A stretch of 64,000 nucleotides of DNA from Malus domestica (lineage: Eukaryota > Streptophyta > Magnoliopsida > Rosales > Rosaceae). The notes beneath the pieces are model-generated. The model made no database searches and was not told where the DNA came from. It was given only the letters and a program-made list of their open reading frames with translations. This document shows, piece after piece, positions 3,421-61,277 of the stretch. The stretch is taken from assembly GCF_042453785.1 (NCBI RefSeq), contig NC_091673.1, positions 16,277,501 through 16,341,500 on the forward strand. Direction: 5' to 3'. Numbering within the stretch: position 1 is the stretch's first letter; every line of letters begins with the position of its first letter. The position numbers and the translations under genes are program-made.

Positions 3421-4644
3421 TCAGGGGTAGTAGTGCTTCAAGAATCTGTCGTTGATAGGGCCGATCTTCAAGCCGTCTTCCGCCATGATTAAGTAGGCGC
3501 CATTGGTGTAGACTTCTTGTACTATGTATGGTCCATCCCATTTTGACGTGAACTTGCTCTTCGTCTTGTGAGTTGTGATGATAGGCCTACGCAATGAAAG
3601 GACGAGATCTCCCATTTGAAAAAACCGAGGGAGAACTTTCTTGTTGAAGGCTTTAGAAAGTCGCGCTTGATAACACTCCAGGTGTTGCTGGGCTTCGAGT
3701 CTCTTCTCATCCAGTGCCTCCAGTTCTTGAAGACGCAACTTTGCATTCTCTTCGTCAGTCAAGCCTTCTTATATAGTCATCCTTAGCGAGGGGATTTGAC
3801 TTTCGAGTGGTAGAACAACTTCTACGCCATATACAAGAGAATAAGGTGTGGCTCGGGTAGGCGTTCTATATGTTGTCCTATATGCCCATAGGGCTTCGCC
3901 TATTCTTTCATGCCAGTCTTTCTTTGTTCTACCGATTACCTTCTTCAGGAGGTTGCACAATGTCTTGTTGAATGCTTCTGCAAGACCATTGGCCGGAGCA
4001 TGATACATGGAGGATTTGTGCTGTTTGAACTTGTATTTCTCGCAGAGCTCGTCCATGAGTCGGTTTGAAAACTGCTTTCCGTTGTCGGTGACAATGTAGC
4101 GAGGCACCCCATATCGATGGATGATATGCCCCTTGATGAAACAGACGACAGTTTCCTTCTTGACTTCCTTTAGGGGTATGGCCTCAGCCCACTTAGAGAA
4201 GTAATCTGTTGCAGCCAGGATGTAAGCCTCTCCTGTAGATGACTTTGGCGCAATTGGTCCCACGACATCCAATCCCTATGCATCGAATGGCCATGAAGTA
4301 GTTGTGGGGTGTAATGGTTCAGGCGGTTGATGTATGAAGTTGGCGTGAAATTGGCAGGCTTGGCACCTCTTGGCGTATTCCAGGCAGTCCTTTACCATGC
4401 TTGGCCAGTAATAACCCATTCTTTTGAGCTGGAAATGAAGCTTTGGTCCGGACTGGTGCGCTCCACATATTCCTGAATGTGCTTCTTCCATGGCTTGATT
4501 GGCTTCTTCCTCGCCTAGGCATCTCAGAAGTACTCCTTCAAAAGATCGCCGGTAGAGTGTCCCTTTGTAATAGAGGAATCGATGTGCTCGTCGACGTACT
4601 TCAGAGCGGCATTTCGGATCGTCTGGAAGCATTCCATGCTCCAA
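3421..4644 (-). pseudogene. Integrase of the Tat element, with two internal stops
   Basis: Three consecutive frames in register. 4644-4276 encodes the H2C2 zinc-binding domain (HSGICGAHQSGPKLH ... CQACQF). 4272-3769 encodes the DDE core, with the two aspartates in LAATDYFSKWAEA and IVTDNGKQFSN and the glutamate in ANGLAEAFNK. 3762-3421 encodes the C-terminal part (MGDLVLSLRRP ... WDGPYIVQEV). TAG at 4278-4276 replaces the tryptophan of FDAWGLDVVGP and TAA at 3771-3769 replaces a glutamine, so no full integrase can be made. Confidence 0.85.
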
Positions 4645-4665
4645 GTAGTTGATCAGAGGCTGTCT

Positions 4666-6327
4666 TCATTCTTCAACGTTGACCGGAAGTATTGAAATAA
4701 CGTTTGTATCACTTAGTACTATTTCAGTGACAAGCGGGATTACCCATCTTTGGCAGACTGGCACGTTTGTAGCTTCGTCTTCTCCTAATGTCATGCTCGA
4801 GGCTAGGTTGGCGAGAGCGTCTGCCATTTGATTATCTTTTCTTGGCACGTGTTCTAGTGTCACGGCCTCAAACCTTTGTAGCAACTGCGTTGCCAGCCGG
4901 AAGTATGGGACGAGGTCATCTTTCCTCACCTCATATTCAGTCAGGAGTTGATTGATTATGAGCTTGAAGTCGCCGTATATCTCAAGGGCTGCGATTTCCA
5001 TGTTGATTGCCATTTGGAGCCCGAGGATCAGTGCTTGGTACTCAGCGACGTTGTTGGAGCATAATTCGCTTAGCTGGAATGAATAAGGTAGTACTTGCCT
5101 TTGTGGCGACATGAATACTACTCCTGCCCCCGCTCCGTCTGCTCGTGCAGATCCGTCGAAGAACATCGTCCATGTCGGGAATATGTCGATGCAGAACACC
5201 TCTTCGTCGGGCAAGTCGTCTGAGATTTTCCAATCGGCTGGGATTGGATGGTCGGCAAGGAAGTCTGCTAGCGCTTGTCCTTTGACGGCTTTAGCTGGGA
5301 CGTAGATGATCTCGTATTGATTGAGAAGTAATGCCCATTTAGCTAGTCGCCCTGTCAAAACTGGCTTAGACATGACGTATTTGACCGGGTCAGCTTTAGC
5401 AACCAAGTGGATGGTGTAAGCATGCATGTAATGTCTGAGCTTCTGGATGGCAAACATCAAGGCCAGGCACATTTTTTCTATTGGGGAGTAGTTCAATTCA
5501 GCGCCGGTAAGCGTTCGACTGAGGTAGTAGAGCGCTCCTTCTTTCTGGGCCTCGTTTTCCTGTGCCAAGAGTGCTCCAACTGAACTTTCCTGAGCAGCAA
5601 TGTACAATATGAGCGGTTTCCCTGGTACAGGTGCCCCCAGGACAGGTGGACTTGATAAATACTTCTTTATGCTTTCGAAAGCATTGTTGCATGCTTCGTC
5701 CCATACGAACGGGACATCTTTCTTCATGAGTCGACTGAACGGTTGACAACGCCCTGCAAGGTTGGAGATGAAGCGTCTGATGAAGGCTAGCCGACCTTGT
5801 AGACTTTTCAACTCGTGCAGGTTTCTTGGTTCGGGCATGCTTTGAATGGCCTTGATCTTTGATTGGTCCACTTCAATGCCACGATGCTTGACAATGAAGC
5901 CAAGGAACTTTCCAGATGTGACGCCAAATGCACACTTTAACGGGTTCATCTTGAGGTTGTATTTTCGCAACCTTTCGAACACTACTCGCAAATCCTTCAA
6001 GTGATTTGATCTTTTCTTTGTCTTGACCACCACATCGTCTACATAACATTCTACATTCTTATGTAGCATGTTACTGAAGATCTTCTGCATTGCGCGTTGA
6101 TATGTAGCTCCAGCATTCTTCAGACCAAAGGGCATCACCTTGTAGCAGTAAATACCTTTTGGAGTGCGGAAGGCTGTTAGTTCCTCATCTTCAAGAGCCA
6201 TACGAATTTGATTGTATCCAGAAGAGCCGTCCATGAATGATAGTGCCTCATGGCCAGTGGTTACGTCCACCATGATTTCAATGATTGGCAAGGGGAAGTC
6301 GTCCTTTGGGCAAGCATTATTGAGGTC
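4666..6327 (-). pseudogene. Reverse transcriptase, RNase H and second (plant-type) RNase H
   Basis: This continues the pol frame after the stop at 6328. RT motifs are FRTPKGIYCYKVMPFGLKNA and the catalytic YVDD (near 6047-6033). The RT-linked RNase H follows (ILYIAAQESSVGALLAQE ... LNYSPIEKMCLALMFA). The chromodomain-free linker then leads into an additional RNase H with FFDGSARADGAGAG, NVAEYQALILGL, IYGDFKLIINQL and DNQMADALANLA. This second RNase H is diagnostic for the Tat lineage. The GD in IYGDF stands where SDS is usual. The frame ends in TGA at 4668-4666, where tryptophan is expected (VEEWRQPL). Confidence 0.85.
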
Positions 6328-9300
6328 TCAAAAGTCCACGCAAACACGTATTTGTCCAGATTTCTTAAAGACTATGACGATGTTGGAGATCCACTTGGGG
6401 TATTGCACCTCTCGAATGAAGCCTGCTTCGATCAACTTGTCAATCTCGGCCTCGATTTGTGGGATGAGCTCGGATCGATAGCGTCTTTGAGTTTGCTTTA
6501 TTGGTCGCGTTCCAGGCTTGACTGCAAGATGATGCACAACAATGATAGGGTCGAGGCCGGGCATTTCCTTGTAGGTCCAAGCAAAGACGTCCTTGAACTC
6601 TAATAGCAGCTGGTAATACTTCTCTATCTCGCCTGCACTTAGTAATGCGCTCACGAAGATAGGCTTCGGTTCCTTACTTGTGCCTAAGTTGAGTTCTTTG
6701 AGATCGTCAACTGTGGCTTGCCCCCCATCTTCGAGTTGTGACGGTGCTGCAATGACATCTTCTTCGAGGCTTTCATCTTCTTCACCTTCTTGGATTGTGA
6801 TGTGGAAGACGTCTTGGGCTTCTTCTTCGGTGTTAACCTCTCGAGCTAGTTGGCATGAAGATTGTCCAGTGTGAATGATGGTGCGCCTTTTCACTTTCAG
6901 TGATCCAACTGTGTTAACCTCCAATATTGCTTGGCGCTTCATTCTTGAAGGAATGGAACTTCGAACGTCATCCTTTTCTGCCAGGCGATCGATCTCTTCT
7001 ACTTCTGGTGTCGTCTTTCTCCTTTTGGAAGGCTCTTTGGCTTCTCCAAGTCTTTCCATAACTGACTGTCGTGGAGGAAAGCTAGTCGTATTGCTTTGCT
7101 TTTTAGGTTTTGATAACCTTTTGAAAACAGAGCCTCGAGATACTGACGTGTTAAGCCTTTTGAAGACGGAAGTTTTGTTTTGACCGCTAATGAGTTTAGG
7201 TGCCGAAACTCTGGGCTTTGAACAATTCATTCTATCGAATACTGATGTCCGGGGGGCAGGTTGAGGCTCCTCTTTATCTTGTATAATGCGTACGCTGATG
7301 TGTTGAGCGCTAGCATTTTTTACCTTGCTGGAGATCTTCACCGGTGCATTTGGTGTAAAACCAAGCCCAGCTTTGTTGTTGCTAACCCCGTAACCATGCT
7401 TCTCTAACCTCTTCTGAGTTTTAGTGAGATCACGTTCGTTGTCTTTGACGGTGTTCAAATCATTCTTTCCCAAATTTGCAGAGGAGGTGAAGTTATACCC
7501 AGCTTTCGACATAAGTTTGTAGGCATTTGGATCAAAACCTTCTTCGGTCCTTTTGGTTGGGAGAAAGCTTGGTTCTACCCCCTTTGGCAGGCCTTTTATG
7601 AAGCCTTGTGATGGTTTTACAACCTTAGTGTCACCTAGCTGGGTCAGAGGCAAAACTGCATTCGTTTTGAGCAACTTTACATTATCTATGTGCCGCTGTG
7701 CATCGGCTTTGCTCGCTGCAGTTTCAAACGGGGATTGACCATTCTTTCTTCTCGACGTCGGGATGTACCGGAAGACGGGTACGCTTGGTCCGTTTGGGGT
7801 CGTCCTACTTCCTCTGGTTGTTGCAGGTTTAGAAAGCTCATCGTCGTTTTTGCTTGAAGATGGCATAGCTTCTTCTTCTTGCTTCTTGGGTATAGCTTGC
7901 CACTCCTGTTTTTTAGACGCTGCTTTGCTCATGGATTTAATCTCTTTTGGAAGAGTTTCGGGCACCGTGTCTTCATTCATGTAGAACTTGGCGTCTGCGA
8001 AATATGATTCGGCTTCGGTGAATGGCTTGGTGTCGCCATAGATCACCTTCACTCGTTCTTGGTAAAATTTTAAACATTGGTGAAGGGTGGACGGTACCAC
8101 TCCGTTCGCATGGATCCAAGGCCTTCCTAAGAGCAGACCGTAGGAAGTTCTTGCATCAATCACGTGGAACATCACGCTTGACTTGAGTTCACCAATGGTC
8201 ATCTCCACTCGGATCATGCCCATCGCTCTTTGTCCTCCTTGGTTAAAACCTTGGATTAGTAGACGGCTTAGGGATAGTTCCTCCACCTTGATGCCGATTG
8301 CGGTCATTGTTGACTTTGGCATGATATTTATGGCTGACCCGCCGTCCACAAGCATGCGGCTGACTTTATGCTCCCTTACGTACCCAGAGACGAAGAGAGG
8401 TTGGTTGTGAGGCTTGGATCCTAGCAACAAGTCTTCGTTGGTGAAATGGATTGTGTCCTCGGTGGCACAGCATGTGGCACACTCGTGTGGCCGAGGCCTC
8501 AAGCCTTCGTTCTTGCTTTCTTGCACTTCGTGGTCGTTTGGACTCGCTAAAACCGTTGCCAATGCCCTTCGTATCTTCTTTGGCAATTGTAGCGCTTCCT
8601 CGATGCTAAAGTGTATTGGCAGACCTTCTTCAGGTGTCGGAGTATTTTCTCCCTCAGCGGCGACAATTTTGCCCTTTGAGGGTTCTTCCGTTTCTACTTC
8701 GACCACGTGACATGCGGTGATAGTGCAATGTTGGAAAAAGTCCTCCAGGAAGTACTCGTGCAATGAGACGGGAATGCGTGGCTTTTGCTCCGCAGGTTCC
8801 CCAGCATATATTGGCTTGGCAGCTCCTATGTTTCTCTTAGGCTTCCTATTGCTGCGACGGCGGTGCTTTCTCCCTTGTTCCCCCTTTTGCTTTATAGCTT
8901 GCGGTTTTGGTTTCCTCGTCCTCTTATAGGTCACCAATGTCCATCCTCTGTCATCGTCAGTAGGTGCGTCCTGGTTGCTTGCCCCCAGTGACGGTGGTGC
9001 AGAATGTGCAGTGTGGTTTGAGTATTGCCGAGCATGGTCAGGCATTTCTTGAAGAAGCACGGGATCAAAGGATCCGAACACGACTGTAGTGGTGTGCGTC
9101 GCAGCTGTGTCTTCTAGGTCGAGCTCAATCCGTCCTTGTTGTGCCAACTTCATGATGAGTTCTTTTAGGATGAAACATTTGCCCACATGATGACCCACGA
9201 TACGATGGTTCTTGCAGTACTTGGGATCATTGATGCGATTCATTTCTTCAGGGCGTTTGCATTCGGGCAACTCAATCACCTTCTTCTCCAGTAGGTCGTC

Positions 9301-9684
9301 CAGCATTGCGTCCATGTCGAAGTCCGGAAAAGGGTATACCTTCTGCTCCAATTCCCTCAAGGTGTTTTTGTACCTATCTTGGGTGTGGGAAGGCTCACCT
9401 TTTTTTATCTCCCTTGCTTTATTGAAAGAGATTTTGACGGGCGCGGACGAGGTCTTGATAGGGGTGGTATTGGTGGTAAAAGCTTCCTTAGCGGGCTTTT
9501 TCCCATGATTGTCTGCTCTTGAAGTGAACACCTTATCCCTTTTGAAATCGGTGATTGGCTCCTTCTTTCCATGGTGAGCGATGCTCAACTCCATGTCGTG
9601 GGCACGGGTGGCTAATTCTTCAAAAGTTCGTGGTTTGATACCTTGAAGGATGTATTGTAAACCCATTGCATGCCCTGGATGCAC
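6328..9684 (-). pseudogene. gag tail, aspartic protease and start of reverse transcriptase
   Basis: An open frame of 1118 codons. The first part finishes gag and is lysine-rich. The retropepsin-like site LVDGGSAINIMP is encoded near 8358-8325, with LLLGRPWIHA downstream, which together are typical of a gypsy protease. The end holds the RT entry segment (EIDKLIEAGFIREVQYPKWI ... VCVDF). It closes with TGA at 6330-6328, where the family has arginine (VDFRDLNNACPKDDFPLP), so RT is cut in its first third. Confidence 0.8.
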
Positions 9685-19300: not shown

Positions 19301-19382
19301 ATAAGTAAAAATGGGTATATTTTGAGTGCAAACACTTCGTCTGAATCGAAAAGCGTTGGACAATTCCACATTTCTGTGCAAA

Positions 19383-22300
19383 ATGGAGAGAACTCATCGT
19401 CTCCTCTTGTTCTTCACTATAGCCGCAGCAGCAGCAGCAGCGGAAGCACAAACCAGTAATATCACCACAGACCAATTTGCTCTCCTTTCTCTCAAATCCC
19501 ACATCACCAGTGACCCTCAGAACGTCTTGACCACCAACTGGTCCACAACTGCCTCCAATATTTGCCACTGGGTTGGCGTTACTTGCGGCGCACGCCACCT
19601 CAGAGTCGCAGCCCTGAACCTCTCTTACATGGGTCTCACCGGCACCATTCCTCCCCACCTAGGCAACCTCTCGTTTCTTGTTAAGGTGGACTTTGTGAAT
19701 AACAGTTTCCATGGTACCTTCCCCCAGGAATTGGCTCGTTTGCGCCGGTTGAAGTTGGTTAACTTTGGATTCAACAACTTTATGGGAACCATTCCTTCGT
19801 GGTTCGGGTCCTTACCCAAACTTCAAATCTTCAATTTGTATGGCAATCAGTTTTCCGGTTCCATTCCTGCTGATATCTTCAACTTGTCTGCACTACAAGC
19901 AATTAATCTGAGATATAACCAGCTAACAGGTACCTATTGTTGATCGATCATTAAATTTAAGGGAGCTGTTATTGACACTCCAACTTTTACACTAGGTAGA
20001 AGTGTGTGATGAAAATTTTACAAACGAGATAACAATTCCAAATTTTAGTATCTTGTTAGATGTTTAACGTTTATCTGTAAGATTTGGTTGTTTATTTTTG
20101 TTGCTTCTTTTGGTGGCACACATAACAGGCAGCATACCAAGAGAAATAGGAAATTTAACAATGCTTAAGGATATACGCCTTGACTTCAACAACTTCAAAG
20201 GTATGTACAGTGCACTCGACTTTTTGTTGCACTATTGGATCAGGGAACTGATTTCTGCACACTTTTTTTGTAATTAGAAATTCCAAACGAGATTGGATCC
20301 ATAGAGAAGCTGGAGAGGCTGTACGTGCAAGCCAATGCCCTGACGGGGCCTGTTCCAGCGGCCATCTTCAACATGTCTTTCTTGACTCTCTTGGCTCTAG
20401 CAGGAAACAGCTTGAATGCTAGTATTCCGGACAATGTATGTCTGCATCTTTCTAGCATTCAGCGGTTGCTTTTGGGTCACAACCAGTTTGATGGACCACT
20501 TCCATCCAAGTTATGGCAATGCAAAGAGTTATCCATCTTAGGACTCGATTTCAACAATTTCAATGGCGGCATACCCAAAAGTATTGGGAACTTGACTCAA
20601 ATAACCAAGATTTATTTTGGCTTCAACAATTTGACAGGTACTATACCAGATGAGATTGGTAATCTTCAAAACCTACAGGCTTTGACTCTCGGAGTTAATA
20701 ATCTAAGCGGTCCCATCCCATCCGCAATCTTCAATATGTCCATGATGACAGCAATTGACCTTACTGAGAATCAGCTCTCCGGTAGTCTCCCAGCAGACAT
20801 TGGTCTCGGTGTTCCAAACCTACAAGAACTTTATGTTGGAGGTAATAAAATCCGTGGGATAATCCCCAACTCTATCTCCAATCTTTCGAAGCTTGCGAGG
20901 CTAGACATGGGCGGGAACTCATTTTCCGGGCTCATTCCTACCAAGCTCTGCACCTTACCAAACCTTGAGTACCTCAGCTTATTCAGAAACAATTTGACGG
21001 TTGACACTTCAACTCCAGAACTAAACATTCTTTCTTGTTTGGTTAATCTTAGAAAACTGAAGACGTTATTCTTGGGCGGTAATCAATTGAATGCCACACT
21101 TCCTTTTTCCTTTCGGAATTTCTCTGCATCGATTCATTATGTTGCTATAAGCAACTGCAACATGAGGGGTAACATTCCCAATGATATCGGCTACTTGAGC
21201 AGCTTGTTAGTCTTAGATTTGAGAAACAATAAATTGGGTGGGTTGATTCCAACTTCTGTGGGAAAACTAGGGAGTCTCCAAGGTTTGTTTTTGAGTGGCA
21301 ACAAGTTTGAAGGAGGTATCCCATTTGAAATTTGTCAACTAGAAAACCTAGCTGAATTAGTCTTGGATGGTAATCAACTCTCTGGTTCGATACCTTCTTG
21401 CTTAAGTAGCCTCGCCCGAGCTCTAAGACGTCTATCGTTAGGGTCCAATTTGCTGACTTCCACAATACCGTCTACCTTGTGGGGACTTGAGTATATCTTG
21501 TACCTAAACTTGTCATTCAATTTTCTGAACGGATCTCTCTCGGAAGATATCGGAAAACTGAAAGTTGTGATCTCTCTCCATGTATCAAATAACCATTTAT
21601 CAGGTGGTTTACCAGGCAGCATTGGGGGCCTTAAAGATTTGGTTGATCTTTCATTGGAATCTAATAATTTAGAAGGCGCTATTCCGAGCTCATTTGGCGA
21701 CTTGGTAAGCCTGGAATCCGTCGATCTATCCAAAAATAATCTGTCCGGAGTGATTCCAAAGTCTCTGGAAGTACTCTCGCATCTCAAGTATCTAAATTTG
21801 TCCTTCAACAGACTTGAAGGAGAAATTCCGAATGGCGGACCATTCCAAAACTTCTCTGTGCTGTCATATGTCTCAAATGGTGCGCTCTGTGGTGAAGCCC
21901 GACTCCATGTTCCACGATGCAAAAAGAGCACGCTTAACCGGAACTCAAAGAAAGCTAGCACATCCAACTTGAAATATATTATTCCAGGGATCGTATCAGC
22001 AATGCTCCTAGTGGCCTCTGCATCAATGTTGATACAACGGAGGAAAAGGAAAGCGGAAGTTGTAACAGAGACTACCTTGCTACCTCAACTTCTTTGGCAA
22101 AGATTTTCACGTGCAGAACTTGTAAGGGCGACAAATGGATTCAACGAAAGCAACTTACTTGGCACGGGGTGTTTTGGCTCAATATATAAAGGTACAATTT
22201 CTGATGGGAGAAATGTTGCTGTAAAGGTTTTCAATTTACAGCTTGAAGGGGCTTTTAGGAGTTTCGACAGTGAATGTGAAGTGCTGAGCCAAATTCTTCA

Positions 22301-23358
22301 CCGAAATCTCATCAAAATCATCAGTTGCTGCAGTCAAGTTGATTTCAAAGCCCTCATACTGCAATACATGCCTAATGGGAGCCTTGAGAATTGGTTGTAT
22401 TCTCAAAGCTCTCCGTTGAGTATTCTGCACAGGTTGAACATAATGACGGACGCAGCATCCGCGTTGGAATACATTCATCACGGTTATTCGATACCAATCG
22501 TACATTGTGATGTGAAACCAAGCAATATACTACTGGACGATGATATGGTTGCTCATGTTGCTGATTTTGGAATTGCGAAACTCATAGGTGAAGGAGACTC
22601 CATGACACAAACCATGACCCTAGCCACAGTTGGGTATATGGCTCCAGGTGATGTGCTACATGCTAAGTTTACGCTCTCACAAAAACTGGACATATTTGTT
22701 GAACTCTCTGATAGAATTGAGCCCTACCGTTATATGTGGAACCCACTTGTATTAGAGAGTGTCAACTATTTACAAATAGTATTATTGATCACTAAATTCA
22801 CGTAAATTAAATTATGCAGAGTTGGGGATGGAAGGAATTGTTTCAACAAGAGGGGATGTGTACAGTTTTGGCATTGTACTGATGGAGACGTTCACAAAAC
22901 GGAAGCCAACGGATGAGATGTTTGTTGGGGAAACGAGTTTAAAGCAATGGATTGCAAGTTCATTACTTTCGGATGATGCATTCGTTGAAATCGTGGATGC
23001 CGGTTTACTAGGGACGGAGGAAGATGGTGGTTTCGGGAGCAGGAGAGATTGCGTATCATCGGTCATGAGATTAGCTCTAGCGTGTTGTGCAGAATTGCCG
23101 GAAGAGAGGATTAGCATGCAAGACGCTCTCGTCGCACTAAAAAAAAATCAGGATCAAGTATTTGAAGGATTGTGGAGGACTCGAGTCTTAATTTTTCTCC
23201 TGTCAAATACGATAATTTTTCGTCGTCTAAGACAAGCAAATGTAGCAGTCCAATTGAACAATTCATCGCATGCATTGATGCATAGTAGAAAAACCTCCAA
23301 CCCACGATTATATTCTCGTCTAAACTCCCAAGGTGCAGTCACACCTCAGATCAAATGA
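19383..23358 (+). CDS. LRR receptor-like serine/threonine kinase, subfamily XII, with a probable C-terminal frameshift
   Basis: Exons are 19383-19929, 20129-20200, 20278-22647 and 22820-23358. Residues 1-22 are a signal peptide. A cap domain (DQFALLSLKSHI ... CHWVGVTC) precedes some twenty LRRs of the NLSGxIPxxIGNL type, a transmembrane helix (~772-793, YIIPGIVSAMLLVASASML) and a kinase. The kinase has GTGCFGS (~836), AVKVF, HCDVKPSN (~949), DFG (~968) and, across the last splice, MAPE. HCD instead of HRD makes it a non-RD kinase, as in FLS2, EFR and Xa21, so a role in microbe-pattern recognition at the plasma membrane is likely; the ligand is unknown. A run of nine A at 23139-23147 moves the frame. 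With eight, the protein would end KKIRIKYLKD... at 23191 (1119 aa) like its family; as written it has about 56 extra unrelated residues. Confidence 0.88.
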
Positions 23359-30397: not shown

Positions 30398-30800
30398 TTG
30401 CAACACACTAAACTGCGAAACTCCACCACTGGAATATCGAAAATCAAAGAAATCAAACCACATAAACAACCGATATAACTTTCCAAAAACCCAAGAACAT
30501 TGTAAAGTATTAAGTTCAAAATATCCGGTGTGCTTGGCAAAGTGATAACATAACGAAGGAAAAAGCATCAAATTCTGACAATTTCACTTAATTTCGAAAA
30601 ATAAACAGAACACGATTTTTACATGAACATATGAAAACTGAAAAACCCTAATCAGCAATAACAAAATTAAACAATCGACATTAACTGAAAAAAAAAATCA
30701 ATATTTAGAAAGAAACCGATACCTTATGAATTGTATCGGGTTTATTTGGCGGCAAGCGTCGGCGGAGCTTCCTTCGCAATCTCAAATATCTATAAGCTCT
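30398..30800 (-). promoter_or_regulatory. 5'UTR intron and leader exon of DOT2
   Basis: On the minus strand a GC-richer leader exon (about 30800-30721) ends ...ATTCATAAG, followed by GTATCGGTTTC. The intron runs to a site shortly before the ATG at 30397. Region 30800-31060 is the promoter flank, with no clear TATA box. Confidence 0.5.
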
Positions 30801-31900: not shown

Positions 31901-32143
31901 ATGTTTCCTTCACCTCCTCAGTGTCAAATTTCAATTTCGGACTGAATGTATCTTCTCTGTATATGGAGTGGTATTGCTTGTTAGCTTAATTAATTAATTA
32001 CGAGTTTCATTTTGGTTAATTGTTATGGGTTTTGTGTTTTGATTAATTGGCTTGTGCTGTTATTTTGGTCAAGTGCTAAAGAGTTGGTGTCTTTCATTAA
32101 TTGATATGAGTTTTTGTTTCGATCAATTGACATGTGTAGAATT

Positions 32144-34081
32144 ATGGAACGATATTATAAGCGAAAACCATCGACGGTTAGTTCAGATAATGTGGGTAGT
32201 TCAAGTTCGGATTATGAAGCGGATGTGAATCTAGTGAATCAAAAGAATGTCGTTATCAATCAGTCAGACCAAGATCGTGTGGCTTATGACACTTGTTTGA
32301 ATGTCTCAATCAATTGCATTAAGTTTTTGTTGCGACAAGATCTTTATTTCTTTGATTATTGTGATAGTGTCACTTCAAGCAATAGGGGAAATTATTTGGA
32401 GCTCTTCCAATTTATTGCCGATCACAATGAGAAAGTTAAGCAGGTTGTGTTGGAAAATGCTCCGAAGGATCTCAACTTATTAGCTCCCTCAGGTCAAAAG
32501 AATCTTGTCAATTCATGTGCCATTGAAACCATCGATGCTATCATGAGTGACGTAAAAGATAGATTCTTTTCTATATTGGTGGGTGAATCTCGTGATTTTT
32601 CGACATTGGATCAAATTGCAATTGTGTTGCGCTATGTCGACAAGAAAGGGGAAGTAATTGAAAGGTTTGTGGGAGTCCAACTTGTTGGCGACATCACTTC
32701 AAGTAATCTGAAGGAGACCATTGACTCATTCTTTTCTTTCAACAAATTAAGTTTTTCCAAGCTACGTGGACAAAGTTATGATGGAACTAGTAACATGAAA
32801 GAAGAGTTCAGTGACCTTAAAACAAAGATTATGAGTAAACAACCTTGTGCATTTTATGTTCATTGTTTTGCTCAAAATCTTGAAATATGTCTTGTTGCGG
32901 CAGCAAAGAAGAATGTTGAAATAGCCAGTTTTTTCACATATATAATTAGTGTAATTAATCTTGTTGGAGCATTTTGTCACCGTCCTGATGCACTTGGAGA
33001 GCAACTCCATAAAGAGCTTAAGGAAGCTTTTGGAAATGATTTTCTAACGGAGAGAGGCATGAATCAAGAAACTAGTCTCAAACATACCGGCGATGCAAAT
33101 TGGAACTCATATTATGGTGTATTGCTCAATTTGATTTCCATGTTCTCGTCTGTGGTAAAAGTTCTTGAATTGATTGTTGATGATTGCGACATTGATATTG
33201 TTGGTGAAGCATGTAGGACATTGAAAGGAATACTCTCTTTTGAGTTTGTTTTTCACCTCTTTTTTATGAGATCAATTTTGGAAGTCACAAATGTTTTGTC
33301 ACTTGCATTACAAAACAAAGATAAAGAGATTGTGGTTGCAATGGATTTAGTCAAATCATGTAAGCAACAACTGCGCCACATGAGGAATAGCGAGTTTGAT
33401 CTTTTGGTTGATAAAGTATCTTCTTTTTGTATCAAGCATGATATTGAAAATCCTAGCTTGGATGAGACATGTGTAGTTCAAGGGAGGTCACGGCGTAATG
33501 CTCCATTAAAGACAAACCGGCAATTTTATGCAGAGGTCTTTTTTTGTGTCATTGACGAGCAACTTACGGAGTTGGATGATCACTTCAATGAGGTGAATAC
33601 TGAGTTACTTGTTTGTTTGGCATGTTTGAATCCGGATAATTTTTTCATAGCTTTTGACAAACAAAAGCTACTTCGTCTTGCTCAATTTTATCCTCAAGAT
33701 TTTTCCGATGAAGACCTATTTGCACTTGAAGGTCAGCTTGGGCTTTATATTCAATATATGCGTTCGAGTAGTGATTTTTCTCAATTGCAAGGGATTAGTA
33801 ATCTTGCAAAAAAAATGTTGGAGAAAGGGATGCATCGAAAATTTAATTATGTGTATTTGCTCATTACACTTGCTTTGGTTTTGCCGGTTGCAACTGCGTC
33901 AGTGGAGAGAGCATTTTCTGCCATGAAAGTTGGTGATGGTTCAGTCTGCAACAGAATGGGAAATCAATGGTTGAGGGATAGTTTGGTTATTTATATTGAA
34001 AAAGATGTTTTTGGTTGTATTGATAATGAAGCTATTATGCTACGTTTTCATAATATGAAAACTCGTGTTGAACAGATGTAG
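32144..34081 (+). CDS. hAT-family transposase-derived ORF (DUF4371 plus hAT dimerisation), lacking the TTF zinc finger
   Basis: One open frame of 645 codons. I chose the ATG at 32144 because MERYYKRKPS is the usual start of this family. An upstream extension to 32114 uses a non-ATG codon. The DUF4371-like RNase-H-fold core spans about 60-400 (NRGNYLELFQFIADHN, FVGVQLVGD, LRGQSYDGTSNM, CAFYVHCFAQNLE, GDANWNSYYGVLL). The hAT dimerisation segment is near the end (LITLALVLPVATASVERAFS). Against ZMYM1-like plant relatives the TTF-type zinc finger of about 150-170 residues is missing cleanly between residues ~37 and 40. The conserved LVDESRD reads LVGESRD, and the KTRLRNRMG motif after AFSAM reads GDGSVCNRMG. 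It is long and open yet probably catalytically dead: a recent deletion derivative or a domesticated protein. Confidence 0.8.
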   Translation: MERYYKRKPSTVSSDNVGSSSSDYEADVNLVNQKNVVINQSDQDRVAYDTCLNVSINCIKFLLRQDLYFFDYCDSVTSSNRGNYLELFQFIADHNEKVKQVVLENAPKDLNLLAPSGQKNLVNSCAIETIDAIMSDVKDRFFSILVGESRDFSTLDQIAIVLRYVDKKGEVIERFVGVQLVGDITSSNLKETIDSFFSFNKLSFSKLRGQSYDGTSNMKEEFSDLKTKIMSKQPCAFYVHCFAQNLEICLVAAAKKNVEIASFFTYIISVINLVGAFCHRPDALGEQLHKELKEAFGNDFLTERGMNQETSLKHTGDANWNSYYGVLLNLISMFSSVVKVLELIVDDCDIDIVGEACRTLKGILSFEFVFHLFFMRSILEVTNVLSLALQNKDKEIVVAMDLVKSCKQQLRHMRNSEFDLLVDKVSSFCIKHDIENPSLDETCVVQGRSRRNAPLKTNRQFYAEVFFCVIDEQLTELDDHFNEVNTELLVCLACLNPDNFFIAFDKQKLLRLAQFYPQDFSDEDLFALEGQLGLYIQYMRSSSDFSQLQGISNLAKKMLEKGMHRKFNYVYLLITLALVLPVATASVERAFSAMKVGDGSVCNRMGNQWLRDSLVIYIEKDVFGCIDNEAIMLRFHNMKTRVEQM

Positions 34082-34494: not shown

Positions 34495-34850
34495 GGAAGT
34501 TAGAGTTCACAATGCCTAAAAGCGTTTTCACGAGCAAAACACTCTTGGTTATGAAGGTGGACTCAATTGAATTACCTATGATTCCCCTGCATCAGTTTGT
34601 TTCCCAAGTCTCAAGTGCCTCTGTGTGAATCCTACAGGTATTGCATCAACCAGAAAGCTCGTCTCTAACTGCCCCGTCGTCGAAGATTTGGAAGTAAGGG
34701 GATATTTCCCAAAAGATGGTCAGGACTTTATCATCTCTGCTCCTGAATTGAAGACGTTAACAAGAAGTTTGTATAATCGAGACTGTTACGAAGAAAATGA
34801 CTATTTGTGTTGTTACAAGGTCTTACCTTCTTCGCCAACCTAAGCAGGAG
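34495..34850 (+). pseudogene. F-box/FBD/LRR-type gene fragment
   Basis: The frame up to 34625 reads LPKSVFTSKTLLVMKVDSIE..., and after a stop and frame change it reads KLVSNCPVVEDLEVRGYFPK ... DFIISAPELKTLTRSLY. This is the LRR part of plant F-box/FBD proteins (SKTLVVLKL, LLSNCPVLEDL, ISAPKLKTL). The F-box itself is absent and frames are broken, so it is a relic. Its 3' end forms the start of the 560-bp tandem array. Confidence 0.65.
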
Positions 34851-36433
34851 ATACACAAGCAACTTTCCATGTCCAAAATTGGTTCGAAGGGACTTGTTGT
34901 GTGGAATTTGTTAGGTTTCAGGAATGACGAGTTCAAAAACGATTCCTCTTAATAGAGACTAATTGCAGTTTGAAAAATGCGTATAAACTTATATTTCGTG
35001 TTTTTATTAAGTTACTAGAGTTTGAATATCACTTTCATTTCTTTTTGTGAGCCTTTAAGATGGATACAAAGTGATAAATAATCTGTTTCATGTCCATGAT
35101 CTTTCTTGTTCATTAATTTGGTTTTCTAATTAGATATAACCTAGGATTTATCCTCCGTGACGCTCAAATCTTGATGAGTGTTATAGAGACATGAAAATAT
35201 ATACTCGGTGACATCCAAGCCTTTTCTTATTTGATGAATTAGACTGAGTGAATGATTTTTCTGCAAAATCCAAAACACGGTCACGTGACGTTATTATTTT
35301 ACTCAAATTCTAATTATCCGAAACAAGTTTGTATAATCGAGACTGTTATGAAGAGAATGACTTTGTATTGTTGCGAGGTCTCTTACCTTCTTCACCAACA
35401 TAAGCAGGAGGTACACAAGCAACTTTCCATGTTCAAAATTGGTTTGAAAAGGACTTGTCATGTGGAATTTTGTTATGTTTCAGTAACGATGAATTCAAAA
35501 ACCATTTCTCTTAATAAAGATTAATTGCAGTTTGACAAATGCGTATAAACTTATATTTTGTGCTTTTATTAAGTTACTAGGGTTTGAATATCACTTTCAT
35601 TTATTTTTGTGGGCCTTTTAGATGGATATAATGTAATAAATAATCTATTTCATGTCCATGATCTTTCTTGTTCATTGATTTGGTTTTCTAACTAGATATA
35701 ACGTAGGATATCTTCCGTGACGCTCAAATCCTGGTAAGTGCTATAGAGACATGAAACTATATCCTCGGTGACATCAAGTCTTTTCTTATTTGATGAATTA
35801 GACTGAGTAAATGATTTTTCTACAAAATCCAAAACACGGTCACGTGACGTTATTATTTTACTCAAATTCTAATTATCCGAAACAAGTTTGTATAATCGAG
35901 ACTGTTATCAAGAAAATGACTTTGTATTGTTGCGAGGTCTCTTACCTTTTTCACCAACATAAGCAGGAGATACACAAGCAACTTTCCATGTTCAAAATTG
36001 GTTTGAAAAGGACTTGTCATGTGGAATTTTGTTAGGTTTCAATAACGATAAATTCAAAAATCTTTTCTCTTAATAGATACTAATTGTAATTTGACAAATG
36101 CGTATAAATTTATATTTTGTGCTTTTATTAAGTTACTAGGTTTGAATATCATTTTCATTTATTTTTGTGGGCCTTTTAGATGGATATAATGTAATAAATA
36201 ATCTATTTCATGTCCATGATCTTTCTTGTTCATTGATTTGGTTTTCTAACTAGATATAACCTAGGATATCCTCCGTGACGCTCAAATCCTGGTAAGTGCT
36301 ATAGAGACATGAAACTATATCCTCGATGACATCAAGTCTTTTCTTATTTGATGAATTGGACTGAGTGAGTGATTTTTCTACATACTCGAAACACGATCAC
36401 GTGACGTTATTATTCTACTCAAATTTTAATCGT
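34767..36433. repeat. Tandem triplication, unit about 560 bp
   Basis: The motif GTTTGTATAATCGAGACTGT starts units at 34767, 35327 and 35886 (periods 560 and 559 bp). The third unit ends near 36433 after a shared GTGACGTTATTATT... block. Units 2 and 3 are more alike than unit 1. Each contains the tail of the F-box fragment and its 3' flank. The 90- and 74-codon open frames inside are products of the repeat, not genes. Confidence 0.9.
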
Positions 36434-38686: not shown

Positions 38687-39133
38687 ATGGCCACTAGTAA
38701 AGCTGAAGATCAGAAGGAATATGTAAATGAACAAGCAGTTGCAAATAAGTTTGCTGCTATGAGGTCTGAACTCAACCAAATTTACTCGAAAATCACAGAG
38801 CTAGAGATGGAAGCAAGCGAGCACTCGTTGGTGATCAATGCCATCCAGCCACTTGATCCATCCAGGCGATGCTACCGGATGATCGGAGGTGTTCTAGTGG
38901 AGAGAACCATCAAGGAGGTTCTGCCTGCTGTGCAGCGCAACAAAGAGGGGATTGAGGAGGTTATAGCTAGGCTGAACGAGGCATTGGAAAAGAAGAAAAA
39001 GGAAATCTCTGATTTTGAGGCTAAGTACAAGATCAGGATACGGAAGGAGCAGGGCGAGGAGAAAGATGATAGTGCTCGGAAAGAAGGGACTGCTCAAGGA
39101 GTCCTGGTCGGCCCCGCTGGCGGGAGTGAATGA
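38687..39133 (+). CDS. PFD2: Prefoldin subunit 2 (beta-type)
   Basis: 148 aa from a single coding exon. Prefoldin is a hexameric cytosolic chaperone that passes unfolded actin and tubulin to the chaperonin CCT. The beta-type layout is visible. The N-terminal coiled coil is at about 14-57 (VANKFAAMRSELNQIYSKIT), a beta-hairpin block follows (AIQPLDPSRRCYRMIGGVLV), then a C-terminal coiled coil at about 88-125 (RNKEGIEEVIARLNEALEKK). The tail is charged and glycine-rich. Length matches plant PFD2. It has the 5'UTR intron described separately and ends 550 bp before the convergent SECE1 gene. Confidence 0.93.
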   Translation: MATSKAEDQKEYVNEQAVANKFAAMRSELNQIYSKITELEMEASEHSLVINAIQPLDPSRRCYRMIGGVLVERTIKEVLPAVQRNKEGIEEVIARLNEALEKKKKEISDFEAKYKIRIRKEQGEEKDDSARKEGTAQGVLVGPAGGSE

Positions 39134-39685: not shown

Positions 39686-39984
39686 TCAGCTGAAAAAATC
39701 CTGAACCCCTCTCCCGGCAAAAACCTGATCGGAAAACTCGGCCAAAACAGCATTGACAGTGAGCAAAACGACGCTGGAGCCGGAAATGACGCCGAGCACC
39801 ACCCCGGTGGTTCCCAACACCTTAGCGAACGCCGGCCACTCGATCTCCCTAACTTCCTCCGCCACTCCGCTAAAAAAATCCCCCTCTTTCTCCTCCTTCC
39901 TCTTCTGCATCGCTGCCTTGATCTCCTTCCCCAACTCGCTCAACTTGACGGGTTGACTCGCGGCCGATTCTTTGTCTTGGGTTC

Positions 39985-41083
39985 TGTTGACCCTAGAAAC
40001 TACAAAGCCTACGTGGCGCGCAGGCCGAGTAATCTATAAGCTAACTACGTCCTTCGGTGATTGCGGGGCGTGCCAACTCGTCGGCCGAGCTCGGCCGAGG
40101 AGTAAATTTGTTGATGTTGCGTTGGGTCGCGCTACTGACTTCTGCGTCTTGCGATTGCGGCCGAGAAAGGAACACGTCTCGGCCTCTTGGGCTCTCGAAC
40201 CTGAAGACAAGGTTACTATTCTTACGAAGTTCAATATCAAATTCGGCTTTCCATGTGCCGAATGTAATAACTGTAACACCTCACTTCGCCGAGAAGGCTG
40301 ATGAGATGACCTCGACCAACAAGGATTTAGAAACCCTTCTCGACCGAGACTTGGATAGGTAATCAATCGTTCTCGCCGCAGTGCTGTTGATGCCAACGGA
40401 AGATACTGCGAGACCGACTGACTCTACGGTGACAGAGCTATCTATGCCGACTTAAGATATCACCGGTTGCTTTCACAGTGCTGTTGATGCCAACGGAAGA
40501 TGTGTCAGCGAAAAAGGAAAAAAGAAAAATCACAAGTTGTGAGAATTTGCGCAGGGCAATTTTGTATTGATTTGCAGGGGTCCCTGATGTTGCTTGCGCT
40601 CTCGTATTTATAGCATCAAAACTCTTAGTCGTGCTGGAGAATTAAAGTCGTGGACATCCCACCATCTCTGATGATAAGCCACAGCCATCTTTATCCCAAT
40701 CAACAATTACCGAGTCATCAGGTAAGATCACATGGGATAAAATGGCATATGCCATCTTTTATCCCATATTTTCCCGTGCCTGAGTTCAAAATAAACAGCA
40801 CCTTTATCCAAGCACCTTTATTGGCTAATGATAATCTAATCCCATCTTTATCTCCATTATATTTGCATAAATGCATGGGAGATAGTCTTCCAATCCTTCA
40901 CGTACATGCATGATACCAATCTCAATCTCAAGCTGGGCTCTTCCGTTTTAAACTCTTGATTTCTTGGAGATCGCCCAAATTCAGTATTAATACCTAGAAA
41001 AATATTAAAATTCAATAGTCTAGAATCCGCTCATCCAACGGCCTCAATTACTTGGGCCGGTAATGTAAAATCGGGTCCAAACA
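39985..41083 (-). repeat. 3' LTR of the SECE1-inserted element
   Basis: Same length as the 5' LTR, with about six substitutions and no indels that I could see. The matching TATA box lies at 40613-40604. It abuts the polypurine tract. Confidence 0.93.
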
Positions 41084-41100
41084 TTGCCCCCCAGTTTCCT
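41084..41100 (-). other. Polypurine tract of the SECE1-inserted element
   Basis: The minus strand reads AGGAAACTGGGGGGCAA immediately before the 3' LTR, the expected primer site for plus-strand synthesis. Confidence 0.75.
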
Positions 41101-41551
41101 TGATCTTCGGCCCGTAAGCTGAAGGTTTAAGGAAATTAATTGTTCACAGCCAATAAAAACCTGTCGTAGTTCTCGACTGCCGAGGTCGAAAAACTTTTGG
41201 AGAGTCGAGAAAAATAGGGGCCGAGGCAAACCATTCCTGGCAGCTCGGCCTGTCACCTATCAAAGTTGTTACCTTTCCTGTCTTTCTAGCCGAATACACC
41301 AGCCGAAAGACTATACACCAACTTATCAATGAAGAACAATTGTCGAAAAGCCATTCTTTTTTTTATACACTACTCGGCAGCCTAACAGCCGAGCAAGTGT
41401 GAACATAAAATGCTCGACTTCATCTCTGCTAAATCAGTCATCTCGGCTGAATAAATAATTTGCTGAAGAATAGCACCCCATGGCCACAACCATATTCTTT
41501 GACCGAATCCGTGAATCACCTTCACTCTTCATTCCTGCTTCTCTCCTCAAC

Positions 41552-41584
<33 letters not shown>

Positions 41585-42076
41585 CCCATGAAATGATGAT
41601 GTCGGCCCCACATGGCCGTTGAAAGTCAAACTTATTCCTTCAAATTGAGGTCCACCGAGTTTCTAATGCCTTCATTAAAAACAACCCCCCATTTCCTTTA
41701 TATATATAGTTTTGGCCGAGAGCATCTCCCATTTCCTTTATATATATATATATATGCCAAGGCTTATATATGAGGTGGTCGAGGCCGAGGCCTTTGTAGA
41801 GTGGCCGAGGTCGAGACCGATACCAAAAAATAAAAAAATAAGACATCGGTCTGCCTATATATAAAAACCTATTTTACTCGGCCATCTACAAATTATTCCT
41901 GGGGCTTGGCTGTACAGTGCAACAACACCACGAAACCATGTGGTCTTGATCAATCATTCAACTACCACAGACCCTCTATGCATCGATACATTTTTTTTTT
42001 ATTCCGTTGGCCCCCTTATTTTCTTATGCATCGGCTTAATTAGCCAGATGATTAAGAAAATAATTTATTCCTTTTC

Positions 42077-42949
42077 TTAATAAAAGAAAACAAAAGTGGC
42101 CGAGCTATCAAGAGGAGGAGGCCAACAATGTTTTATTCCAAGCCGAGATCTTTTTACATCAAAATTTTCATTTTGACATTTTCCAAAGCCGAATAAAAGA
42201 TCATCTCCAAATACGTTCGGCTTGAAGGAATATTTTTTATCGGTCGCCGAATGTGTTAAAAAATTATTATGCCCCCTAGGCATAATTTCGGCTTTTAATT
42301 CAAATAACTTGGCCGAATGAGATTTCTTCATATCGACTTTATCGCCAATAATCATATCAATTGGCGTAGTTTCTTGGGCTAGGCCAATATCTCGGCCTCG
42401 TTCGTCATTGGAGCATTCTTTTGACAAATTATTTTCTGAGTCGATTTGTGGCTCAAAAACTTGAATTTTTCCATCTAGGCCTACCACACTTTCAGTCTCG
42501 ACCGAAAAAATAGGTGGCCTAGGTTTGTCTTCTTGGCCGACCATATTTTCAGCCTAGACCGAAAAAATAGGTGGCCTTTGTTCTTTGGCCAAATTAACAA
42601 TTTTCTTAGGCCGATGTCTGATTACGGCCGGAGCGGAAAATTGCCCCCCGGCCTTTGGACCTAACCATTTTTCAAATGGAATTGATCTGTAATCAGAAAC
42701 GTAAGGAAAATTTTCTTTATCTAGCCAGGCATTAAATCGAGCTCTGTCTTCATTTACCCATTGCTCTTGCAGGGTAACAGGAGCTTTTATTCTCAACATG
42801 CAAGCGAATGACTTTTGCATCTCTCCATGGCCACGAAGAACTTTTTCCACTTCCAAAGATCTTTTACATTCCTCATTGTGTTTTTTCAATTCCTCTAGGA
42901 GCTCGTACAATCGGCTACGTTGAGCCAGATTGGAATCTTGATATATCAT
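42077..42949 (-). pseudogene. Element-internal ORF (gag position) interrupted by one TAG
   Basis: Two frames, 42949-42554 (131 codons) and 42544-42077 (155 codons), lie in the same register with a single TAG between them. They would give about 290 aa. The N-terminal part looks helical (SRLYELLEELKKHNEECKRS). The motif RPPIFSV is repeated on both sides of the stop, so a small internal duplication surrounds it. I recognise no capsid or enzyme domain. It occupies the gag position and may be a gag relic or a protein special to this family. Confidence 0.55.
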
Positions 42950-42975
42950 ATGAACTTCGTAGTATTAGCACTGGG

Positions 42976-42993
42976 TCCCACTGGGCGTGCCAA
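42976..42993 (-). other. Primer-binding site of the SECE1-inserted element
   Basis: The minus strand reads TGGCACGCCCAGTGGGAC, two bases from the 5' LTR. It shares its first ten bases, and the later GTGGGA, with the Tat element at 10802-10785. Confidence 0.75.
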
Positions 42994-42995
42994 AA

Positions 42996-44094
42996 TGTTG
43001 ACCCTAGCAACTACAAAGCCTACGTGGCGCGCAGGCCGAGTAATCTATAAGCTAACTACGTCCTTCGGTGATTGCGGGGCGTGCCAACTCGTCGGCCGAG
43101 CTCGGCCGAGGAGTAAATTTGTTGATGTTGCGTTGGGTCGCGCTACTGACTTCTGCGTCTTGCGATTGCGGCCGAGAAAGGAACACGTCTCGGCCTCTTG
43201 GGCTCTCGAACCTGAAGACAAGGTTACTATTCTTACGAAGTTCAATATCAAATTCGGCTTTCCATGTGCCGAATGTAATAACTGTAACACCTCACTTCGC
43301 CGAGAAGGCTGATGAGATGACCTCGACCAACAAGGATTTAGAAACCCTTCTCGACCGAGACTTGGATAGGTAATCAATCGTTCTCGCCGCAGTGCTGTTG
43401 ATGCCAACGGAAGATACTGCGAGACCGACTGACTCTACGGTGACAGAGCTATCTATGCCGACTTAAGATATCACCGGTTGCTTTCACAGTGCTGTTGATG
43501 CCAACGGAAGATGTGTCAACGAAAAAGGAAAAAAGAAAAATCACAAGTTGTGAGAATTTGCGCAGGGCAATTTTGTATTGATTTGCAGGGGTCCCTGATG
43601 TTGCTTGCGCTCTCGTATTTATAGCATCAAAACTCTTAGCCGTGCTGGAGAATTAAAGTCGTGGACATCCCACCATCTCTGATGATAAGCCACAGCCATC
43701 TTTATCCCAATCAACAATTACCGAGTCATCAGGTAAGATCACATGGGATAAAATGGCATATGCCATCTTTTATCCCATATTTTCCCGTGCCTGAGTTCAA
43801 AATAAACAGCACCTTTATCCAAGCACCTTTATTGGCTAATGATAATCTAATCTCATCTTTATCTCCATTATATTTGCATAAATGCATGGGAGATAGTCTT
43901 CCAATCCTTCACGTACATGCATGATACCAATCTCAATCTCAAGCTGGACTCTTCCGTTTTAAACTCTTGATTTCTTGGAGATCGCCCAAATTCAGTATTA
44001 ATACCTAGAAAAATATTAAAATTCAATAGTCTAGAATCCGCTCATCCAACAGCCTCAATTACTTGGGCCGGTAATGTAAAATCGGGTCCAAACA
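42996..44094 (-). repeat. 5' LTR of the SECE1-inserted element
   Basis: On the minus strand it starts TGTTTGGACCCGATTTTACA and ends CTAGGGTCAACA. A TATA box CTATAAATAC lies at 43624-43615. A roughly 26-bp direct repeat (CAGTGCTGTTGATGCCAACG...) occurs twice within it. Confidence 0.93.
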
Positions 44095-44328
44095 GGTTCT
44101 CACCGATTCCGCGCCCGACTCTGAATTCGTCTGGCTTTCGTCGACAGCTCTGAGAAATGATTGTCTTCTGTTCTTCTGTGTTAGGGGCCGTCTGGGTTGG
44201 GATAGGGGGATTGAGTGGCCACCGGCACATGGCGGTTTCAACCGTACAGGTGAGTTTAGGCTACCGGATATTGTGGGTGGCGGGAAGGGTGAGCTAACCG
44301 GGAACTGTACGAACATGCGTAGAGCCAT

Positions 44329-59399: not shown

Positions 59400-60086
59400 T
59401 TCGAATTCTAGCAGTACACATGTAAGCAGGTGGCTGTGCTTGCAGTTAATCTGCCGACACTTGTCGCTACAGAGGTTGCCAACACTTGTCGGCTTAGGAC
59501 CCTCGTCACTCCATCGAATGTTCGAACTGATATTGGACGCTAATGCTAGTATCCTTTCAAAGGTTGTAGTTCAAGTTTTTACTATTTACTCATAGAGCCA
59601 AGAACTGGTGTTCGATTACGTATCCTAGTACCCTTCTGCAGTTGGAGTTGTTATGAGCACTAACTCAATTAATTAAAAATCGATTTTTAAATGGTTAAGA
59701 ACATTTACTCTTGCACCAAAACCCACGTTTAGGGTTTAGTTACTCCCACCCTAGTAGTGTTGGTATGACAAAGAAAAAAAAGTGTCTTTGAGCTAAGCAA
59801 AACAGAGATTTTTCCCGAATACTTCACGTTTCAATTAGAAAGTAGAGTGTTCTTTTGAAAATCCTTGTCTATACACACAAGCACTGCGAAAACACTCTTC
59901 CAACCACGTCCTGGCGGTGTAGCATAAGGCAATGCAGACATTGCTTGTGATGCAAGAATACCAGATCGAGCCAAATAAGCGAAAAAGAGCATAAGCCACA
60001 AACAAGTTGAAAAGGGAATGTAATTGACAAGGGGGGCTTCAGTATAGGAGGGGACTGTTTTGTTAAAAATGTCAAATATCTTTTTA
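59400..60086. other. Distal upstream DNA of the LEA gene
   Basis: Contains two similar blocks with GACACTTGTCG / AACACTTGTCGG near 59455 and 59480. No gene. Confidence 0.4.
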
Positions 60087-61215
60087 GAGCAACTCCAGCG
60101 TGGAAGCTCTCCCCCAGGCTATTCACTATTTAATCCACCCTGTGAACAGTAACCGGCCTTAATGAACAATAACTGCATTTTGTATCTCCACCGTTGCACT
60201 TGAATAGCCTTGGCAATAGGCAATAAAATATATATTTTTTAAAATAATATAGAATAATTTTTTATTTGTAATTTCGGATAAGATTTTTAATCGTTCTCTT
60301 TGCACCACATGTCATTATCCGAAAAGACAATTATTGATGATGGATTTCGATAAGATTTTTATCCAATGCCGTCGTGCCACATGTCCTTACTTTTTCAGAA
60401 TCTTTGAGGATAGATTTCGATCAGATTTTTAATCGTACCTGCATCAGTAGTCATTTTGTTGAAAAAAATTGGATTGAAACTTTGAGAGAAAGATAGAAAT
60501 TCGATTGAAAGCAGTTGAAAAAATATGAAATTGTGGTGTAAGGTAAATGATAATGAGAAGATATTTATAGAAAAGTAAAAACAATTTTTTTAAAAAAAAT
60601 TCAGATTTTTTCCGGATTTTTTACAATTTTTTTAAAATTTTTTATTGAACTAATTAATCTCTGCCGTTGGATTTAAAAAAAAATTGAATTCTAACACTCC
60701 AGATTGTGCCACGTGTCACAACGGTAACTTTTCTTAATTTTAAAACTATTTTTTCTTTTATTTATTTATAAAGCAGAATAATATCAACCGTTGATATCAA
60801 ATCCAATGGTTGTTATTAAATAAGATTTTTTTATTTTTATTATCGTTGCAAATCGGACGGTCCAATTTAAAGAGCCGTTGAGATCGAACAGACCGTGGGA
60901 AGCCACGTGGCTTCCCAACGGTAACCTCGGCAGACTGCGACATGGCCCCATACTCTAAAAAGCTGTCAGCTGACGCGCCCCCACGCGAGAGTGAGTCGCA
61001 CGCGCCTGACAGAAAAAAAATATAAAATTGGGCTGAAGTCAGCCCTAGCGTCACATCCACTCGGGCTCTCAGGCTGGCAATTCCTCACAGCCCCGGAGCT
61101 CGGGCCTCCACTCTCCCTTGGGCTAGCCATGCTGGAGCTTCAAGGCTGGGTTATCTGGCCCTATTTCGTCCCTTGTGCCCTGTCCCTTGAGCACCAGCCC
61201 ACGCTGGAGTTGCTC
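60087..61215. mobile_element. Non-autonomous PIF/Harbinger-type element, 1129 bp
   Basis: Perfect terminal inverted repeats GAGCAACTCCAGCGTGG at the left and CCACGCTGGAGTTGCTC at the right, flanked by TTA at 60084-60086 and 61216-61218. The TTA duplication and short perfect ends indicate PIF/Harbinger. No transposase is encoded. The right part (61030-61210) is GC-rich and the left part A/T-rich. It includes a perfect 20-bp palindrome centred on CACGTG at 60897-60916 and another CACGTG at 60710-60715. Confidence 0.85.
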
Positions 61216-61277
61216 TTATGACTTGAAAATTTTCTACTTCAAGTGTCACATGGTAACAAACTTGCATTCAACTTCTA

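Follow-up and report, generated by a model that had tools for sequence, protein, structure and literature searches.

A gene for the plastid translocase subunit SECE1 is split by a long terminal repeat (LTR) retrotransposon in the 64-kb stretch of apple (Malus domestica) DNA analysed here (the window; NC_091673.1, positions 16,277,501 to 16,341,500), and an intact homeolog of this gene is present on contig C16. The break in the copy on contig C13, to which the window belongs (C13:16277501-16341500), most likely reflects the ordinary loss of one member of a homeologous pair to a young retrotransposon. In the history we favour, a whole-genome duplication would have produced two SECE1 genes, on C13 and C16, and a non-autonomous LTR element, presumably dependent for its copying on enzymes of a Ty3/gypsy family that shares its primer-binding site (PBS) and the repeat-unique 5' (R-U5) part of its LTR, would then have entered the C13 gene in sense orientation, at a point that separates the transit-peptide-like part from the SecE domain, duplicating 5 bp; the C13 gene would thereby be left null, and the C16 copy would supply SECE1. 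To this account as a whole (a duplicated SECE1, a young element that kills the C13 copy, and function supplied from C16) we assign a probability of about 0.92.

The C13 SECE1-like gene lies on the minus strand, and joining its flanks without the element yields one unbroken open reading frame (ORF) of 175 amino acids. The 5' half (44095..44328), which runs from the start codon to the insertion point and takes in one copy of the target-site duplication (TSD), encodes an N-terminal, transit-peptide-like region, matches residues 1-79 of the joined query at 99% and is homologous to the C16 locus (L001), while the 3' half (39686..39984) takes in the other TSD copy and the stop codon and encodes the SecE domain, an EWP motif and the tail. 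Within the joined ORF, this C-terminal half matches the Pfam family SecE PF00584 (E 3.9e-05; 23.9 bits against a cut-off of 22.7), scores 26.1 bits against NCBIfam TIGR00964, slightly under the cut-off of 27.55, and weakly matches bacterial SecE structures, with chain 3din_D at the top (E 0.00086). The E-W-P motif, present here as REIEWP, is described as invariant ahead of the membrane segment in plastid SECE proteins, of which SECE1 and SECE2 are termed essential, in one study (PMC6857650). The insertion point is upstream of the SecE domain and inside the N-terminal region, the least conserved stretch of plastid SECE (PMC6857650). As far as that source describes the Arabidopsis protein (At4g14870), both have an N-terminal extension, a SecE domain with EWP, a hydrophobic segment close to the C terminus and a short tail (GRGVQDFFS at its end in the C13 copy). 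Unlike the Arabidopsis gene, however, the C13 copy is parted by 4,115 bp (the element plus one TSD copy), across which no read-through is possible. A tblastn search of the window revealed no second SECE1, only the gene's own two halves plus weak matches (E 0.19 and above), and an Rfam scan of the window at gathering scores gave 0 matches.

What the broken gene could still encode can be predicted from its frames. Reading from the SECE1 start codon into the LTR would give an 89-amino-acid product, with 11 LTR-encoded residues and a stop at 44061, and transcripts begun after a TATA-like box at 40612 in the other LTR would meet one five-codon upstream frame and then an in-frame ATG at 39910, from which a 74-amino-acid SecE core lacking the N-terminal region is predicted. 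Since these would be a truncated product and, at most, a core without a plastid address, we infer that the C13 gene is null and that C16 supplies SECE1.

The element spans 4,110 bp (39985-44094) on the minus strand, in the same sense as SECE1. The sequence-only reading, which had proposed a recent retrotransposon insertion in this gene, described perfect GGTTC duplications and LTRs that differ at about six of 1099 positions; the duplications are indeed perfect, at 39980..39984 and 44095..44099, and the two 1,099-bp LTRs align without gaps and with exactly 6 mismatches. Read on the minus strand, each LTR runs from TGTTTGG to GTCAACA, with the TG...CA ends typical of such repeats. In element sense, the 5' LTR occupies 42996..44094 (TATA-like box at 43623) and the 3' LTR occupies 39985..41083, whose TATA-like box could start transcripts into the SecE half. 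Between them lies a 1,912-bp internal region (41084..42995) that we take as non-autonomous, with a PBS-like region (TTTTGGCACGCCCAGTGGGAC, 42975..42995, minus strand) reading from 42995 and a polypurine tract (PPT; AAACTGGGGGGCAA, 41084..41097, minus strand) that ends at 41084, beside the 3' LTR. The pair of direct LTRs with TG...CA ends, the TSD, and the PBS-like and PPT stretches adjoining the LTRs together identify an LTR retrotransposon. No sign of its own gag-pol was found as a Pfam domain over cut-off in its two longest minus-strand internal ORFs, which are both unassigned: one of 131 amino acids (42554..42949; DUF5959 at E 0.19 only) and one of 155 (42077..42544; no Pfam match). Searches of viral contigs with the PBS motif and with the LTR end gave 0 matches each, and a literature search for the PBS string gave none.

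The evidence for a second copy comes from a search of the 19 contigs (651,096,769 bases in one set) with the joined SECE1 protein, in which all 5 of 5 candidates were scored and 4 matches were obtained: C16:16241462-16242004, the two window halves and C14:25108443-25108739. The C16 match is 91% identical, covers query residues 1-175 without a stop, and belongs to an uninterrupted frame of 181 amino acids (MALRMF...GVQDFFS) in which the insertion site is empty, the alignment crossing it unbroken. Relative to C16, the C13 gene lacks six codons (an in-frame 18-nucleotide (nt) difference) just downstream of the insertion; the earlier description of two halves that are in register and otherwise undamaged therefore stands for the register, given the 175-residue joined ORF, and needs this one qualification for the lack of damage. 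Separately, the C14 match (L004, L006) is a decayed SECE1 fragment, 77% identical over query residues 43-142 and containing one TAG, and the extra acidic residues of C16 SECE1 also occur in this fragment and are absent from the C13 copy.

Collinearity, counted from C13-C16 matches longer than 150 bp at E 1e-20 or better, supports the assignment of the pair as homeologs: the matches fall in the same order across 13.1-49.9 kb of the window, with gaps, and include the prefoldin and SART-1 genes, so the genes that flank SECE1 are collinear on the two contigs. At the same thresholds nothing in the C16 segment matches the element. One report names apple chromosomes 13 and 16 among homologous pairs (PMC5859117), and another notes syntenic regions on them (PMC9720448). 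A genome search with the PF00584 profile (0 matches in 1 genome; positive in 12 of 14 control genomes) was uninformative because it also missed the window's own SecE half. The intact C16 homeolog bears directly on the claim that an essential gene had been split, since 'essential' fits the function and not the C13 copy, and it bears out, at the level of sequence, the second copy that had been proposed as a means of compensation.

The timing of the two events can be compared within the same locus. Nei-Gojobori counts over the 175 codons shared by the C13 and C16 genes, a single gene pair, give 27 synonymous changes at 123.3 sites (synonymous divergence, Ks, 0.259) and 16 non-synonymous changes at 401.7 sites (Ka 0.041), or a Ka/Ks of 0.16; the LTR distance is 0.0055 (0.55%), about 2% of the SECE1 Ks. 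These values point to a pair that is long constrained and recently broken. Substitution rates are commonly put at 7e-9 to 1.3e-8 per site and year. Such rates would date the insertion to 0.2-0.4 million years ago, or earlier if trees mutate more slowly. When the six LTR differences were polarised against 28 other loci of the family (L021-L048), the derived state fell in the left LTR at two sites (40629, 40937) and in the right LTR at four (43008, 43519, 43853, 44051), a distribution most simply explained by changes that arose after insertion. The other loci have a single form at each site save 40629, where L036, whose match is ragged at that end, has T like the left LTR and L029 has A, so the LTR mutations are private to this insertion with one partial exception. 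The structure of the element, its TSD, these apparently post-insertion differences and the empty C16 site all uphold the reading of a recent insertion in SECE1.

The relatives of the element help to define what kind of element it is. An LTR search, with 40 of 3,205 candidate places scored, listed 42 matches, of which 9 cover the full LTR (two in the window, a pair each on C10 and C3, and single LTRs on C11, C15 and C5). All five full-LTR places beyond the window (C10, C3, C11, C15 and C5) are flanked by 5-bp duplications (CGTTC, GAAAC, GATAT, GTTTC and GTACT), and the LTR pairs differ by 11 mismatches in 1,100 aligned columns on C10 (98.1% identity) and by 2 in 1,114 on C3 (99.7%). Two further listed matches are parts of one damaged C8 copy; the other 31 begin at LTR position 1 and end at 589-650, close to the TATA-like box at position 628, and include four pairs spaced 12.4-12.6 kb apart. 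LTR positions 1 to about 600-638 are found at 95-98% identity in most copies of the Ty3/gypsy family. In one 12.5-kb pair (C13:40473534-40486683) the first 46 nt of the internal region are 98% identical to those of the window element, and the domains encoded there are Retrotrans_gag, a protease (scoring below cut-off), reverse transcriptase, RNase H and then integrase, which is the Ty3/gypsy order. Among the 20 partial-LTR loci inspected (L028, L030-L048), 10 have the terminal 30-74 nt of the unique 3' (U3) part in common with the window element, and in the other 10 no match to U3 reached E 0.001. A search with the internal region (40 places scored of 1,297 candidates) recovered it whole at three scored places (the window, C1 at 97% and C10 at 94%), while the other 37 matches all end at 1912, 35 of them beginning at 901-935. 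The C1 element, with its internal region at 97%, nevertheless has a nearby LTR that matches positions 1-589 alone.

The LTRs of the window element and of L028-L048 are thus mosaics, in which R-U5 is near-identical in many copies, U3 differs and the switch is near the TATA-like box. A constant R-U5 next to a variable U3 suggests exchange of U3 within the gypsy family. We take the window element to be non-autonomous, to have a mosaic LTR and to have been mobilised, probably, by gypsy enzymes. Like the large retrotransposon derivatives (LARDs) and terminal-repeat retrotransposons in miniature (TRIMs), it has two LTRs, TG...CA ends, PBS-like and PPT stretches, 5-bp duplications and no pol domains found; it differs from them in its size (LTR 1,099 bp, internal region 1,912 bp), larger than usual for a TRIM and smaller than usual for a LARD, and in its two short ORFs without a Pfam match. 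With the large Ty3/gypsy family represented by C13:40473534-40486683 it has the 46-nt leader and the R-U5 part of the LTR in common, but its U3 differs, save for the terminal 30-74 nt in some copies, and the family has the gag, reverse transcriptase, RNase H and integrase that were described above.

Several points weigh against the account that we favour. The mobilising family is deduced from common sequence, and the 131- and 155-amino-acid ORFs are unmatched in C13:40473534-40486683, the gypsy copy examined; transcription of the C16 gene and silence of the C13 gene are presumed; diverged copies, such as SECE2, could escape the PF00584 profile search; and the insertion may be heterozygous, as one contig set was searched. 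To this last alternative we give somewhat less than an even chance: the other haplotype would have an empty, working C13 allele, as the youth of the insertion (0.55% LTR difference) and the outcrossing habit of apples would allow. Heterozygosity and an intact C16 copy are compatible and can both hold, and with C16 intact neither heterozygosity nor splicing is needed to explain how the break is tolerated. That the locus is an assembly artefact is extremely unlikely, given that the 5-bp duplications are perfect, that this copy has LTR mutations of its own and that its flanks are collinear with C16. It is very unlikely, too, that the C13 locus makes the 74-residue SecE core from the 3' LTR promoter for use outside the plastid; the TATA-like box, the single short upstream ORF and the in-frame ATG would permit it, but the core is without the N-terminal plastid address and the leader before the ATG at 39910 is nearly 700 nt.

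Rescue by splicing was considered with a heuristic scan of in-frame donor-acceptor pairs. The top of the 9 pairs would remove the element as a new intron, from a hypothetical donor 32 nt inside the 5' LTR (CAA/GTAATTGA, 44062..44063, minus strand) to a hypothetical acceptor 8 nt from the 3' LTR end (TTTCTAG/GGTC, 39992..39993, minus strand), leaving 40 nt of LTR and the 5-bp TSD as 15 extra codons in a 190-amino-acid SECE1. Among controls, random window segments equalled or beat its score in 3 of 400 cases, rotations of the element in 6 of 300 and shuffles in 2 of 300 (0.7-2%), the reversed element gave no in-frame pair, and the 40 retained nt are free of stops in all frames. When Arabidopsis SECE1 carried green fluorescent protein after its transit peptide, most of it coincided with chlorophyll in protoplasts and some remained in a stromal pool (PMC6857650), so an insertion at this place may not block targeting. 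In Arabidopsis, ONSEN insertions have been reported to be spliced out as introns, among them one in an exon that was removed whole (PMC12112155). That exonic case likewise concerns an LTR element in a plant exon, but splicing was seen in RNA there and is a possibility on paper here; according to the same source, insertions in exons mostly produced transcripts that fused gene and element by way of new start or end sites, and exonic splicing was ascribed to special context (PMC12112155). The splice-site weights were entered by hand; of the sites listed, the donor is of moderate strength, fourth among 7 donors scoring >5, and the acceptor is third of 7. The donor occurs in 7 of the 9 full LTRs and is missing from both on C3; of four more distant relatives with a readable LTR start, L055 and L058 keep GTAAT with changed neighbours and L056 and L057 are without it. 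With C16 intact, rescue of C13 is also unneeded, and we consider this explanation unlikely. The broader proposal, that sense exon insertions of this LTR subfamily are removable as frame-keeping introns because donor and acceptor lie near the LTR ends and the stop-free 40 nt plus TSD make 15 codons, with the broken SECE1 still giving a working 190-residue protein, is more doubtful still. None of the 9 in-frame products used the donor-acceptor pair at the insertion point itself (44103 to 39983). Strengthening of the acceptor after insertion (39997 versus 43008) was considered and rejected, as the left-LTR form is found in all 28 other loci and it is the right LTR that mutated, and the case for splice rescue as an evolved trait of the family was weakened by a donor conserved only in part.

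Other features of the window lie around this locus. The neighbour of SECE1, a prefoldin-subunit gene on the plus strand (38687..39133; PF01920, E 3.7e-27) that we take to be subunit-2-like, also adjoins SECE1 on C16. A segment of ~1.1 kb (60084-61221) is out of order relative to C16:16206500-16246400 (L015-L017, L005): its C16 counterpart is flanked by the homologs of window positions 30726 and 30723 and lies upstream of SART-1, a minus-strand gene, so that in C13 it is ~29 kb from its C16-like place, having either moved or been copied and deleted. At 34762-36430 a unit of ~557 bp is triplicated in tandem (92% and 88% alike) and appears single in C16. The block at 19326-23358, which has leucine-rich-repeat receptor kinase frames (domains in 20325-22802), has almost no counterpart in the C16 segment that was compared, and a 655-amino-acid ORF with DUF4371 at 32114-34081, presumably hAT-transposase-like, has no match there. 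Retrotransposon-like open frames occupy 3769-9684 on the minus strand, with RVT_1 and RNase H in 4669-6291 and no Pfam family found in 6331-9684.

The locus offers a clean, datable case in which the second copy of an essential organelle gene was lost after genome duplication: two SECE1 copies were kept under constraint (Ka/Ks 0.16), and one was then broken by a young insertion. A comparison of plants that have the insertion with plants that lack it could tell whether a second SECE1 copy matters for dosage.

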